Assembly: GCA_938041445.1 (NCBI GenBank)
Contig: CALISO010000011.1
Coordinates: 1-45,328, forward strand
Direction: 5' to 3'
Origin: an uncultured Saprospiraceae bacterium
GTDB taxonomy: Bacteria > Bacteroidota > Bacteroidia > Chitinophagales > Saprospiraceae
DNA: 45,328 bases
Part shown: one piece after another, positions 4,135-31,170 of the stretch
Position numbering within the stretch: position 1 is the first letter of the stretch
Layout of the letters: each line of letters begins with the position of its first letter
The notes under the pieces: generated by a model
Told to the model about the DNA's origin: nothing
The model's input: only the letters and a program-made list of their open reading frames with translations
Databases searched by the model: none
Made by a program: the position numbers and the translations under genes

Positions 4135-5451
4135 TCAGTCTCCAAGTTCGACTCCCATTAAATTCCCACTACTCAAGAGGAGTAAGACATCATATTGCTG
4201 CCAGCTATCTATAAGATCCCGTAAGCTACTGGCATCATAAATTACGTTGCAATCTTTTGATGCAAATGCAGACTTAATCTCTTCTGGATCAAGGACTGGC
4301 ATGCCTTTAATAATAAAAGCATGCTTATCTACACAGACTGCAGCAGCCACTACATCGTCAAAGACTCCTGCATACTGTGGTATAAAATCTGCCAGCATGC
4401 TACTATAGGAATGCAATTCTACAATGACACCAATTTTTTCATCCGGATGATTCTCAACTACTGCTTCTATAGTTGCTCTTACTTTACTTGGTGCATGGCC
4501 AAAGTCTCTATATATTTTTGGATTGGATTCCTGAATCAATTGTTGTCTCATCGCCGCTCCTTGGAAAGATTGCAATGAACGCAAACCATCTTCTATATCG
4601 ATACCAAGTTCTCTAGTTACTAATAATGCAGCATGCATATTTTTTCGATTGTGTCGACCAAAAATATGCATTTGATATTCTACACCATTACTAGCGACAA
4701 TATCACCTACTCCATCTAACCCAAGATATCCTTTTACATTTAGTCTATCTGCATATTGATTTACTAAGTCTACAAGCTGTGGATCATTGGCGTCATAGTA
4801 CACAGAAGCACCATCTGCAAGAGTACTTAGCAAGTTATCAAATTGAGATGCGTAATCATCAGCTGTTGGAAATACATTGGCATGATCCCAAGCAATGCCC
4901 GTGATGATGGTGATATGCGGATTATAATGCACAAATTTAGGCCTTCGGTCAATCGCTGAAGAAAGGTATTCATCTCCTTCAATAACGATCAATGGAGCAT
5001 CTGACAACTGCACCATCAAGTCAAAGTCAGCTAATTGAGCTCCGACTAAATAATCATAATCTTTCTTTTGTTTCTTCAATATATGCATCAACATTGAAGT
5101 CGTAGTTGTTTTACCGTGGCTACCTGCTACAATTACACGTTGTTTATCTTGAGAGTGAGATGCTATGAATTCTGGAAATGATTGAATTTGTATTCCTAAC
5201 TCTGTTGCAGCCAATAACTCAGGATTATCAATCTTAGCATGCATACCTAGAATGATAAGATCGATGTCATTAGTGATAGTCTTTGGGAACCAACCAAACT
5301 CTGATGGCAGTAGCCCTTCTTCAGATAACTTGTCGTGAGATATCCCATAAATTACATCATCTGAACCAGTCACAGAATGCCCATTGCGACTAAGAGCGAT
5401 GGCAAGGTTATGCATGATACTTCCGCCTATTGCGATAAAATGAATTCTCAT
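4135..5451 (-). CDS. mpl: Mpl-type UDP-N-acetylmuramate tripeptide ligase (murein recycling)
   Basis: The 438-residue product is a Mur-ligase family member most like Mpl, which attaches recycled L-Ala-gamma-D-Glu-meso-DAP to UDP-MurNAc in the cytoplasm. The N-terminal Rossmann-like part starts MRIHFIAIGGSIMHNLAIAL, typical of MurC/Mpl. The ATP-binding loop is GSHGKTTT (residues 110-117, Lys114). IEGDEYLSSAIDRRPKF and GIAWDHANVFP are the Mpl forms of the central-domain motifs, and FGRHNRKNMHAAL and DFGHAPSKVRATIEA match the rest. The length is close to that of the family. The gene lies 15 bases downstream of the cobalamin adenosyltransferase gene on the same strand, so the two are probably co-transcribed. 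Confidence 0.93.
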   Translation of the reverse strand: MRIHFIAIGGSIMHNLAIALSRNGHSVTGSDDVIYGISHDKLSEEGLLPSEFGWFPKTITNDIDLIILGMHAKIDNPELLAATELGIQIQSFPEFIASHSQDKQRVIVAGSHGKTTTTSMLMHILKKQKKDYDYLVGAQLADFDLMVQLSDAPLIVIEGDEYLSSAIDRRPKFVHYNPHITIITGIAWDHANVFPTADDYASQFDNLLSTLADGASVYYDANDPQLVDLVNQYADRLNVKGYLGLDGVGDIVASNGVEYQMHIFGRHNRKNMHAALLVTRELGIDIEDGLRSLQSFQGAAMRQQLIQESNPKIYRDFGHAPSKVRATIEAVVENHPDEKIGVIVELHSYSSMLADFIPQYAGVFDDVVAAAVCVDKHAFIIKGMPVLDPEEIKSAFASKDCNVIYDASSLRDLIDSWQQYDVLLLLSSGNLMGVELGD

Positions 5452-15717: not shown

Positions 15718-15749
15718 TCAATAAGCAATCTTCTAGCTTGCTGTCATTC

Positions 15750-16394
15750 TTAGAAGTTATAGGAAGCTTGGAACCAATATTCAGCGAACCCGTTGTAATC
15801 TCTTAATCTATCATTCATAATAAATAATAACTCAGCTCCGAATTTCCAATCTCCCCATCCTTGAAGGATACCACCACCTAAGTACAAGCCACCTTGTGTT
15901 TCTCTAGCACCAGGAATGAGGAATCCATTATCCTGTCTAGCCAGATTATTAATATCATACTCCACTTGAGCATAGAACTGTTGAAAAACCTTAGCTCTAG
16001 AATAGACTCCAAAGCCATAATCATGAAAGGATTGATCGTTAGCTTGTCCTTGCTCATTAAATAAGAGCAATCTGTATTTTCCAGCAACGCCGGCAGATAA
16101 CCAATCGGTTACTTTGTATCCTGTATTTACTTTGGCAGCGATTGAGAATATATTTCCAGTAAACGTCAGACTTCCAGCCTTAATATCAGTATTGAGTTGA
16201 TTCAATAGATTGAAAGTTTCAGAATCTGAAGACCGAGTCCTAGTTGATTTGGATTCTGATCTAGAATCTGTTGGAGCAGTTGTTGTCTCACGCTTTTTAG
16301 TTCCAGTCTTTCGCTGGGCATTTGCATCAGTGAAAACCCCGATACAAAAAAGGAGGACTAGGGGTAATATATAGGTGTTTTTCATAGTATTCAT
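15750..16394 (-). CDS. Small outer-membrane protein, beta-barrel type
   Basis: The 214-residue product has a signal peptide (MNTMKNTYILPLVLLFCIGV, then FTDANAQ). A short basic and Ser/Thr-rich linker follows (residues 28-60). From about residue 65 amphipathic strands alternate (GSLTFTGNIFSIAAKVNTGY, GVYSRAKVFQQFYAQVEYDI, GLYLGGGILQGWGDWKFGAE) and the protein ends YWFQASYNF, with a C-terminal aromatic typical of outer-membrane barrels. The start could also be the ATG three codons later (16385), which begins MKNT. Function unknown. It is divergent from the large PKD protease. Confidence 0.75.
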   Translation of the reverse strand: MNTMKNTYILPLVLLFCIGVFTDANAQRKTGTKKRETTTAPTDSRSESKSTRTRSSDSETFNLLNQLNTDIKAGSLTFTGNIFSIAAKVNTGYKVTDWLSAGVAGKYRLLLFNEQGQANDQSFHDYGFGVYSRAKVFQQFYAQVEYDINNLARQDNGFLIPGARETQGGLYLGGGILQGWGDWKFGAELLFIMNDRLRDYNGFAEYWFQASYNF

Positions 16395-29133: not shown

Positions 29134-30186
29134 ATGCAAACAACTATAAATCTCAACGAGACAAGTCTAAGCCGATTGATCACACATCATATCGGTAATA
29201 AGTCTCAAGAAGGACAACTCATTCTTAGAGAAGAAGAGACTCAGGTAGCAGAAGATGAGACTGAAAACTATCTCTCCTCATACTTCCTGGATACATTGAA
29301 AACAGAGGAGGTATTCGAACTAACTCATACAATCGACCTTCAGCACAATCCTGTGTATACACTTGCCAAAGAATTACTCAACGATAGGTCTCGATTCATA
29401 GAAATCTCTAAGAAACTAGGTCAGCTGTTATTTGAATCCAGCACGCATCCACGTATCAAGGAAGGGAAGTTGAGCATAGCAATATTTGAGCAAGTTCACT
29501 ATGATGATGAAGTGTGCACCGCTATTGGCATTTTCAAGTCTGAGACTTCTGTACCATTCTTGCAGATTCATGAAATGGAGTCTAACTACGCATTTAGCCA
29601 CGACTTTGGATTTGAATTAAAAGGTCTTGACAAGGCTTGCTTAATCATAGATCGCAATCAAGAAAATGGATTCTCATTGTTAATCAGAGATCATGCAAGT
29701 AAGCAATTGGAGGCTCAATATTGGACAGAAGATTTCTTAGGTGTCAGACCAATGAGCAATGATTACAATCTCACTAAGCAGTATCTATCATTGACTAAAG
29801 ACTTTGTAGTTAATACAGCGTCTGAAGATTTTATGATGAGCCCACCAGAGAAAATAGATATCCTCAATAAGACTATGGACTACTTCAAAGGCAATGAAAC
29901 ATTCGATAAAGATGACTTCTCTAAGAGTGTCTTCCCAGACGAAAAAATGCAAGATGCCTTTATGTCTTTTGATAATGAAAATGATGAAATACACCATCAC
30001 CATACGACTGACTCCTTCCCTATATCTCAGCGAGCAGTTAAGTCCCAATCAAATGTCTATAAGAGTGTCCTAAAATTAGATAAGAATTTTTCTGTCTACA
30101 TACATGGAGACAAATCTATGATAGAAAGAGGCATGGAGCCTAATGGAAGAAAGTACTACAAACTGTTCTACGAGAACGAGTCATAG
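29134..30186 (+). CDS. Nucleoid-associated protein (NdpA/YejK-like, NA37 family)
   Basis: The 350-residue product belongs to the 37-kDa nucleoid-associated protein family, as found in Bacteroidota. Segments that show this are LITHHIGNKSQEGQLILREE near the N-terminus, LGQLLFESSTHPRIKEGKLS, TAIGIFKSETSVPFLQI, KACLIIDRNQENGFSLLI and YWTEDFLGVRP. It probably binds DNA in the cytoplasm; its physiological role is poorly known. It stands alone on the plus strand, and the two minus-strand small RNAs described below converge on its 3' end. Confidence 0.85.
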   Translation: MQTTINLNETSLSRLITHHIGNKSQEGQLILREEETQVAEDETENYLSSYFLDTLKTEEVFELTHTIDLQHNPVYTLAKELLNDRSRFIEISKKLGQLLFESSTHPRIKEGKLSIAIFEQVHYDDEVCTAIGIFKSETSVPFLQIHEMESNYAFSHDFGFELKGLDKACLIIDRNQENGFSLLIRDHASKQLEAQYWTEDFLGVRPMSNDYNLTKQYLSLTKDFVVNTASEDFMMSPPEKIDILNKTMDYFKGNETFDKDDFSKSVFPDEKMQDAFMSFDNENDEIHHHHTTDSFPISQRAVKSQSNVYKSVLKLDKNFSVYIHGDKSMIERGMEPNGRKYYKLFYENES

Positions 30187-30202
30187 TAACCAGAGGTCAA
30201 GG

Positions 30203-30299
30203 CAAAAAAAAAGCCCTCTTTCTCAAGAGGACTCCAAACAATTATGAAAAAGCTCACGCTTCATCTTTAAAACGTTACATAGAACGTTTCGTTGTGTCT
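30203..30299 (-). ncRNA. Candidate small RNA B, homologue of small RNA A
   Basis: No protein gene explains this stretch. On the minus strand there is a 7-bp hairpin (AAACGTT / AACGTTT, 30289-30270). It is followed by a 40-base block (30262-30223) identical to one in unit A (30417-30378), then a 9-bp terminator stem (30233-30212) and a T-run (30211-30204). A weaker promoter (TTG at 30337-30335, N21, TATATTAT at 30313-30306) would start a transcript of about 95 bases. Flanks of the two units are not alike, so the shared block looks selected. The family is unknown to me. Ends are estimates. Confidence 0.6.
30204..30233 (-). terminator. Intrinsic terminator of small RNA B
   Basis: In minus-strand RNA, AGUCCUCUU and AAGAGGGCU pair over nine positions (third pair U-G) around a GAGA loop, then eight U. 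On the plus strand the same stem has an A-C mismatch and no T-run. Confidence 0.75.
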
Positions 30300-30360
30300 T
30301 TAACCATAATATAACATTTAATTTAAGTGTAAAACAACAATTGAAAGCTATATATGGTAT

Positions 30361-30490
30361 CAAAAAAGTCCCCTTCTTCAAGAGGACTCCAAACAATTAT
30401 GAAAAAGCTCACGCTTCTATTCTTAATACGTCTACCGCAACGTAGTTAATTTAAAATTTAATCAATACAGATAGCACACAATGTCTCTCT
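30361..30490 (-). ncRNA. Candidate small RNA A, tandem homologue of small RNA B
   Basis: On the minus strand a strong promoter (TTG 30527-30525, N20, TATATTTG 30504-30497) should start a transcript near 30490. It would run through a short hairpin (TACGT / ACGTA, 30444-30427), the 40-base block shared with unit B (30417-30378) and a terminator (30388-30362), giving an RNA of about 130 bases. The first hairpin differs in sequence from that of unit B but keeps pairing (TACGT/ACGTA against AAACGTT/AACGTTT). No good open frame exists on the minus strand. Plus-strand mini-frames beginning MKKLTL occur in both copies but are judged a by-product. Confidence 0.65.
30362..30388 (-). terminator. Intrinsic terminator of small RNA A
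   Basis: In minus-strand RNA, AGUCCUCUU and AAGGGGACU pair over nine positions (sixth pair U-G) around a GAAG loop, followed by five or six U. The wobble is at a different pair than in unit B. Confidence 0.75.
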
Positions 30491-30496
30491 GTGTCA

Positions 30497-30527
30497 CAAA
30501 TATATACTAAGAAACTTAGTATTTCAA
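30497..30527 (-). promoter_or_regulatory. Bacteroidota-type promoter of small RNA A
   Basis: TTG, 20 bases, TATATTTG on the minus strand: an exact match to TTG-N19-21-TAnnTTTG. It points away from the DUF2452 gene and into the repeat region, where there is no protein gene on that strand. Confidence 0.65.
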
Positions 30528-30750
30528 TGTTCCAACATATATTTTTCAGAAATGTAAATGACTGACATTTTTATGGCAAATTTATTGTGGTTTATCACCC
30601 CTTACTTTGACAAAGAACATTCAAAATTATCAAGTATGTCTCAAATCAACAATTTCTTAATAATCGCTCAATTTGAAATCAATATCATTAAGCAACTATC
30701 CAACAACTATTGTCAATGATTAGCGTTTCTTTTATTGTCACGCAAATAAT
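30528..30750. other. Gap upstream of the DUF2452 gene, no gene seen
   Basis: These 223 AT-rich bases hold no convincing frame on either strand. The only notable item is a sigma-54-like TGGCAAATTTATTGTG at 30574-30589 on the plus strand, 160 bases before the next gene, which is too poor a match to call. Confidence 0.5.
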
Positions 30751-31170
30751 ATGATGGACAAGAACCCTATAGACAAAGATAAGATAGCGGAAAACCCTCA
30801 CTTACTTCCCTATGCACATACATTAGGTAGTGCGATTATCCGACCAATAGATGAAGGAAAAATAAAAGGTACTGCACTAAAATCAATGTACAAGCAGACC
30901 GACAATCAGCTATCACAAATAAAGGAACAAGTAGATTTACTGGTACAACAAGCTCAAAAAATTCACGATAGAATTGAAATATCTGAAAGTATATATCTAG
31001 CTGAATGCAAAATAACGCCTCTTGTTGGTCACACTTATCATCTCTATGAAAAATCAGATGGTAACAGATTGTTATCAATGATAGGACCTGATGAATGGGG
31101 AGCTAGCTCTCCATATACTCATGTTGCACAGGTTGAACTTCTTGCTGATCACACTTGGGAAATACTATAA
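30751..31170 (+). CDS. DUF2452 family protein
   Basis: The 139-residue product matches my memory of the DUF2452 family: NPIDKDKIAENPHLLPYAHT at the N-terminus, KGTALKSMYKQTDNQLSQIK, ESIYLAECKITPLVGHTYHL, and LLADHTWEIL at the end. It has no signal peptide or membrane segment. The middle (residues about 45-75) is likely a helical coiled region. Function is unknown. The oligopeptidase gene follows after 83 bases on the same strand. Confidence 0.82.
   Translation: MMDKNPIDKDKIAENPHLLPYAHTLGSAIIRPIDEGKIKGTALKSMYKQTDNQLSQIKEQVDLLVQQAQKIHDRIEISESIYLAECKITPLVGHTYHLYEKSDGNRLLSMIGPDEWGASSPYTHVAQVELLADHTWEIL

Follow-up and report, generated by a model that had tools for sequence, protein, structure and literature searches.

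The gap at 30187–30750 between an NA37 nucleoid-associated gene and a DUF2452 gene, on a contig from an uncultured Saprospiraceae bacterium (hereafter, the host), very probably encodes RNA on its minus strand. Judging from the sequence, tandem sibling small RNAs produced there are likely to act in trans by pairing with the initiation regions of surface-lipoprotein mRNAs, which they would repress. Two homologous minus-strand genes, as proposed in the original prediction, are still the best reading of the gap, and the support comes from conservation in a genus-mate (G003) and from matches to the starts and leaders of lipoprotein genes. Coordinates refer to the window, i.e., the whole 45,328-nt stretch of DNA that was analysed.

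Structure of the repeated locus

The two 40-nt blocks that had been claimed to be identical agree letter for letter at a spacing of 155 nt (Table 1), and the identity between the two copies is 93% over 56 nt. Each RNA core, as read from the sequence, consists of a GNRA-loop hairpin, a linker, and a terminator, in this order. The terminator stem is GGAGUCCUCUU-loop-AAGAGGGCUUU in the left copy and GGAGUCCUCUU-loop-AAGGGGACUUU in the right copy, followed by T; its 5' arm lies within the block, and the loop sequence varies between the copies. The predicted minus-strand stems fold in both copies. The 58-nt units reached −19.0 and −19.3 kcal/mol (4/200 and 0/200 shuffles folded as well, respectively), and the terminator scan listed the left terminator alone (1 found vs 0.4 expected). 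At full length, the folds were −27.0 kcal/mol for the left RNA (97 nt; 4/200 shuffles as good) and −30.3 kcal/mol for the right RNA (z −1.66; 15/200), and none of 200 shuffles was as good as the genus-mate RNA. The pairs of the GAAGC-GUGA-GCUUU hairpin are invariant in all copies and thus without covariation support. The hairpin ahead of the block also folds in each copy, with flanks that cannot be aligned. The mean predicted unpaired fraction of CAUAAUUGUUUG was 0.62 in the left copy, 0.21 in the right copy, and 0.49 in the genus-mate.

Table 1. Features of the gap and its neighbours, in window coordinates
Feature	Position	Strand	Remark
NA37 nucleoid-associated gene	29134–30186	+	5' neighbour of the gap; stop codon at 30186
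Intrinsic terminator, left copy	30204–30235	−	Stem 30235–30210; T-run 30212–30204
Left small RNA, predicted (~95 nt)	30205–30299	−	5' end as in the original prediction; 3' end at the terminator
Conserved 40-nt block, left copy	30223–30262	−	Equal to the right copy; 39 nt identical in the genus-mate
Linker UUCAUAAUUGUUU	30236–30248 (left); 30391–30403 (right)	−	Anti-start CAU at 30244–30246 in the left copy
Hairpin GAAGC-GUGA-GCUUU	30249–30262 (left); 30404–30417 (right)	−	Predicted in all three RNAs
Weak sigma-70-like site	30306–30333	−	Upstream of the left copy; chance level
Intrinsic terminator, right copy	30362–30390	−	Stem 30390–30365; T-run 30367–30362; absent from the terminator scan list
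Right small RNA, predicted (~130 nt)	30362–30490	−	Exact promoter match upstream
Conserved 40-nt block, right copy	30378–30417	−	Equal to the left copy; 39 nt shared with the genus-mate
Promoter-like TTG-N20-TATATTTG, right copy	30497–30527	−	Exact match; −7 box at 30504
Second promoter-like TTG-N20-TAATTTTG	30622–30652	−	Exact match, farther upstream of the right copy; −7 box at 30629
DUF2452 gene	30751–31170	+	Other neighbour of the gap

The original prediction also drew on stem differences that leave wobble pairs on the minus strand. The differences are real, but they are thin as evidence, comprising two pairs with neither changed on both sides; the genus-mate carries the left-copy versions of these pairs, and the shuffle control was uninformative. 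The wobble argument by itself is insufficient to carry the small-RNA reading, and it is the cross-species conservation that carries the case.

Promoters were sought with a pattern that we take to be the Bacteroidota consensus. The exact match claimed upstream of the right copy (apparently the ‘copy A’ of the original prediction) was found in place, and the second exact match farther upstream would yield a longer RNA of ~250 nt. The minus strand of the gap holds two of the three exact TTG-N19–21-TAnnTTTG matches of the whole window (both strands scanned), and on the plus strand an exact match of this pattern is lacking throughout the window. Among first-order resamplings of the minus strand of the gap, at least one match occurred in 9% and at least two in 0.5%. 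The weaker promoter claimed for the other (left) copy does exist as a sigma-70-like match, but in this region sites of this type are at chance level (5 found vs 3.3 expected). Because this match is weak, the left copy possibly depends on read-through from the right copy. On the same strand of the genus-mate, TTG-N19-TAAATTTG would give an RNA of ~200 nt.

Conservation and taxonomic range

The genus-mate G003 (contig CALLAW010000054.1) carries one copy in the same gap, with the core exact over 39 nt, while the flanks of the block are dissimilar and cannot be aligned across the three copies (two in the host and one in G003). The five neighbouring genes share 63–87% amino-acid identity between the two genomes, and their four-fold sites are identical at 14/33, 36/107, 22/66, 15/42, and 67/207 positions (154/455 in total), i.e., saturated. 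At such saturation, sequence under no selection would not have survived.

A sequence search of 60 genomes (host included) gave matches in two. With a 26-mer and up to three mismatches, three of the 398 family genomes matched, namely the host, the genus-mate, and G130; the last was rejected as a third RNA, as its match runs antisense to the start of an ordinary gene (MKKITISL). The exact 22-mer hit one record in a genome contig database from which the window's own genome was possibly left out, and this record was the G003 contig. The other genus-mates, G001 and G002, showed no copy in the regions read or by sequence searches, so that the RNA family, as far as it is recognisable by sequence, is confined to two of the four genomes examined of one genus. 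Searched as a 21-mer with up to three mismatches, the half of the block that forms the hairpin had no place beyond the RNA genes in the four genomes.

A covariance model searched against 199 family genomes gave a match at E ≤1 in 90 of them, and strong matches (below 1e-15) were obtained in the host and genus-mate only. The next-best E-values were 5.9e-4, 0.0028, and 0.0030, levels at which about 0.1 and 0.6 matches are expected over 199 genomes; this is a slight excess, with E-values that are rough. Among 13 weak loci that were inspected, seven begin at most 20 nt from where a reading frame ends, a position typical of mRNA terminators. One locus in another genus (G080, L056:1501–1571) has an intergenic hairpin, UUUUUUCAUAAUAGUCUGG, and then a terminator, a similar hairpin-UUUUUUCAUAAU-terminator layout; its fold was not clearly above shuffles (12/200 as good), and it was not counted as a family member.

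Two readings that would speak against the original prediction were rejected. A mobile repeat is ruled out by the copy numbers, i.e., two in the host (23-mer, up to two mismatches) and one in the genus-mate, and by the lack of an exact 20-mer in viral contigs. As for a protein gene, the 57-aa minus-strand ORF at 30223–30396 has no Pfam match, and by our reading the likeness to G003 stops at the block. An Rfam covariance search of the whole window returned no family at gathering score, in agreement with the original prediction, in which no known family was recognised.

Predicted lipoprotein targets

The block complement resembles a translation start (AAACAATT ATG AAAAAGCTC; for the core in longer form, GGACTCC AAACAATT ATG AAAAAGCTCACGC). 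Eleven non-self 17-mer matches with up to two mismatches were found in the host and genus-mate; ten open a frame of at least 129 aa at the ATG, nine of which we read as lipoprotein or secreted. The best match in the genus-mate is C103 (one mismatch), and C5 is among its seven two-mismatch matches. These counts say little alone because at up to three mismatches they barely exceed the reversed control (33 vs 32 in the genus-mate, not enriched; 51 vs 38 in the host, mildly so).

C103 and C5 belong to the same lipoprotein family, which has a carboxypeptidase-regulatory-like domain. A protein search with C103 gathered five members in the host, four in G003, three in G001, and four in G002, and the block complement was aligned to −200 to +30 of each gene to give a site score. 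The host members scored 40 (C119), 34 (C90), 34 (C117), 24 (C9), and 14 (C133), and those of G003 scored 40 (C103), 26 (C5), 18 (C6), and 18 (C96). The genus-mates without the RNA scored 20, 18, and 16 (G001) and 24, 18, 16, and 16 (G002), with none of the seven above 24. The maximum among sampled control genes was 30 in the host (n = 281) and 28 in G003 (n = 275). Three of the five host members thus scored at least 34, compared with 0/281 sampled genes (Fisher 2.6e-6, cut-off 32–34), and the sum of the top three was reached by none of 2000 first-order resampled blocks. The nine genes of the RNA-plus genomes differed from the seven of the RNA-minus genomes at P 0.03, a comparison in which C103 and C5 had been pre-selected as matches.

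The 20-mer GGACTCCAAACAATTATGAA (up to three mismatches) occurs at five places in the host, namely the two RNA genes and C90, C117, and C119; all three non-RNA places are in sense orientation at −100 to +17 of paralogous lipoprotein genes. The stretch was chosen after C119 and C90 had been seen, and the search used the RNA's own letters alone. Across the four genomes, the only further non-self places were a single one in G003 (C72) and a pair in G002. As a control, the reversed pattern gave 1, 1, 0, and 1 places in G000 (the host) to G003, and no G003 family member carries the 20-mer. At the C72 place (15745–15764; L090, L144), AGACTCCAAACAATATTGAAAAAA stands directly before an intrinsic-terminator-like hairpin; it is possibly a decoy or sponge for the RNA, at chance level by the reversed control.

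The predicted pairing covers the start codon in C119 and C103. In C117 (−43 to −24) and C90 (−100 to −79) the sites lie off the assumed start codon, in the presumed leader. The C90 site contains an in-frame ATG that precedes the start assumed from the signal peptide by ~28 codons, which makes the true start of this gene uncertain. When the C90 leader (L138) is aligned with that of the related operon of G003 C5 (L143), the RNA-matching stretch (4615–4634) falls in a 21-nt gap in G003; located just after a conserved piece, this gap may be due to the gain of a site or to the alignment itself. The 330 nt upstream of each of the nine starts examined contained no exact promoter.

A second candidate family is a small lipoprotein (CPxxAxCVWEG, by our reading), with members C29 and C59 in the host and C47 in G003; small lipoprotein genes of this kind carry near-copies of the block complement at their starts. 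The site is a 17-nt run in C29 and a 14-nt run in its relative C47; C59, the host orthologue from the protein search, scored 28, a level reached by 3/281 controls. Both C47 and C59 adjoin MacB-like permease genes, and no homologues were detected in G001 or G002 at E 0.001. The host counterpart of C103, C9, scored at a level reached by 13/281 controls. Duplex energies of −26 kcal/mol were reached by 15/281 host and 18/275 genus-mate controls, and −31 kcal/mol by one in each; ranking by energy parts targets from controls less well than the alignment score does.

The gene following C90, C117, and C119 in the host and C5 in G003 encodes sigma-70 region 2 and region 4 domains (ECF-type), and in three of these four clusters the third gene weakly resembles an outer-membrane barrel domain, below the cut-off. 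A search for genes similar to the C5 sigma factor revealed the same layout at host C133, G003 C6, two G001 loci (both on C17), and three G002 loci (C16, C23, and C31). This recurring cluster of a CarboxypepD_reg-type lipoprotein, an ECF-type sigma factor, and a third gene is possibly a lipoprotein-linked ECF system. Strong sites are present in three of the four host clusters, with C133 (14) lacking one, and in neither of the two G003 clusters (26 and 18). The strongest site of the genus-mate (C103, 40) belongs to a lipoprotein gene that has no sigma gene beside it in the stretch read, and the same holds for C9.

Proposed function

A conserved core complementary to several related mRNA initiation regions beyond chance was found in the host and, in part, in the genus-mate. 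We propose that minus-strand transcription would produce the sibling RNAs, each stopping at its own terminator, and that the core would pair with lipoprotein mRNA over the start codon or leader. Pairing with the lipoprotein mRNAs is probable, and repression is somewhat favoured as its outcome. Ribosome entry would be blocked, giving less lipoprotein and perhaps less product of the downstream sigma gene. The two copies would provide dose or separate promoters. GGAGUCC, the partner of GACUC(C) in three host targets, sits in the terminator stem (predicted unpaired 0.01), and so the stem would have to open for pairing; the linker of the right copy is predicted to be mostly paired. Orthologous targets are unequal in strength between the host and genus-mate, and the target sets overlap only in part.

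A broader and rather doubtful extension is that, one level above ECF signalling, a single RNA core turns off the leading lipoprotein gene in several paralogous lipoprotein/ECF sigma/third-gene clusters together. In this view the start of a lipoprotein gene, copied in reverse, may have given rise to the core, and target sites come and go in leaders. If true, alternative surface-sensing programmes would be held off together by one RNA core.

Alternative explanations

Real minus-strand RNAs might act otherwise, on a protein or on other mRNAs, the lipoprotein matches being a case of start regions looking alike; we regard this as unlikely. The complement is indeed a generic-looking start, with start-context log-odds that rank at the 98.6th percentile among 556 roughly called starts and exceed those of 99.9% of 3251 sampled ATGs, the strong targets are only partly shared between species, and the linker is partly paired in the prediction. 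However, when 39-mers were centred on the other called starts, none of the 556 matched the host family as well, and the match reaches GACTCC, upstream of the start context.

That MKKLTL... is read on the plus strand in all three copies and resembles the starts of host C119 and G003 C103 would fit a block whose plus strand derives from, or served as donor for, a lipoprotein gene start (ATG AAA AAG CTC ACG CTT), as a relic or donor copy rather than an RNA gene. This is very improbable, given that the frames stop after 8, 16 (right copy, our translation), and 10 codons with no common continuation, that a relic would not remain exact past silent-site saturation, and that it is the minus strand which carries the matches to terminators and promoters. 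A lipoprotein gene-start copy may be the origin of the RNA.

Tandem copies with a short MKKLTL plus-strand frame opposite the RNA also recall a type I toxin-antitoxin system (plus-strand micro-peptide, minus-strand antitoxin RNA), which we consider most improbable, as the 8-, 16-, and 10-residue peptides share little past the first six, the plus strand of the window is without an exact promoter match of the tested kind, and the match to the Fst antitoxin does not rise above chance (E 5.5). Finally, terminators alone at the convergent end of the NA37 gene, without a regulator, would explain why the left terminator is just downstream of the NA37 stop codon, but these terminators end other-strand transcripts and the conservation extends beyond the stem to the hairpin and linker, which leaves this explanation hardly credible.

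Comparison with known small RNAs

To our knowledge, small-RNA control in Bacteroidota beyond Bacteroides is little charted, and our literature search found no paper combining ‘Saprospira’, ‘small RNA’, and ‘sRNA’. Here, sequence alone was enough to define a conserved RNA together with its strand and core, and to predict a few targets, unusually concrete ones, down to the exact site.

The closest parallels to sibling RNAs that would pair with initiation regions come from two groups. The streptococcal csRNAs are several highly similar small RNAs with an unpaired anti-AUG between stem-loops, ccnAB being in tandem (PMC3091779, PMC4507080), and their action on the comC initiation region is supported by mutation (PMC4507080). 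The RNAs described here resemble csRNA (RF02379) in their sibling copies, in a CAU between two stem-loops, and in complementarity to initiation regions; here the CAU lies between hairpin and terminator, in a linker predicted to be unpaired to a varying extent (0.21 to 0.62). The RF02379 covariance scores were 17.9 and 17.7 against a gathering score of 57 bits (E 7 and 7.6), and this sub-threshold alignment matched UUUCAUAAU in the same place. Unlike the csRNAs, the present RNAs belong to another phylum and have, by our reading, GUUUGGAGUC beside the anti-start instead of an anti-SD. The csRNA promoters are CiaR-controlled.

In Bacteroides, the paralogous small RNAs FopS and GibS pair with mRNAs for envelope proteins close to the start codon, which lowers their translation, and a block of ribosome entry was shown in vitro for FopS-10 on a susC leader (PMC11697453). 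FopS is also bound by RbpB. The same phylum and the target class of envelope proteins are shared with our RNAs; the FopS seed R1 is in the 5' part, whereas here UUUUUCAUA lies between hairpin and terminator, and the chief targets are SusC-like transporters, in contrast to the surface lipoproteins predicted here (PMC11697453). GibS (RF04182) scored 23.9 and 21.6 for the host copies and 16.1 for the genus-mate against a gathering score of 115 bits, and FopS (RF04319) scored 17.0 against 56 bits for the left copy only, with no listing for the genus-mate RNA at E up to 10. GibS is among the best sub-threshold matches of both host copies (E 0.29 and 0.74; 6.8 in the genus-mate), and its consensus opens with GUGUUUUUCAUAG, sharing the letters UUUUUCAUA with the host RNA. 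We do not take this likeness as homology, because it is at chance level and UUUUUCAUA is expected in any anti-ATGAAAAA seed.

Rfp18 of Flavobacterium psychrophilum is a conserved Bacteroidota small RNA with one pairing region and several predicted secreted-protein targets (PMC9723704). By that description, it differs in that the pairing region is the third stem-loop and the predicted targets are mainly proteases (PMC9723704).

Overall, the predicted working is csRNA-like and FopS/GibS-like, yet the RNAs are placed by sequence outside those families; the kind of regulator is known, and the RNA family and its likely targets look new. The finding ties small RNAs to paralogous ECF sigma clusters, and the shared hairpin-linker-terminator layout suggests that anti-start sibling small RNAs had independent origins in streptococci and Bacteroidota.
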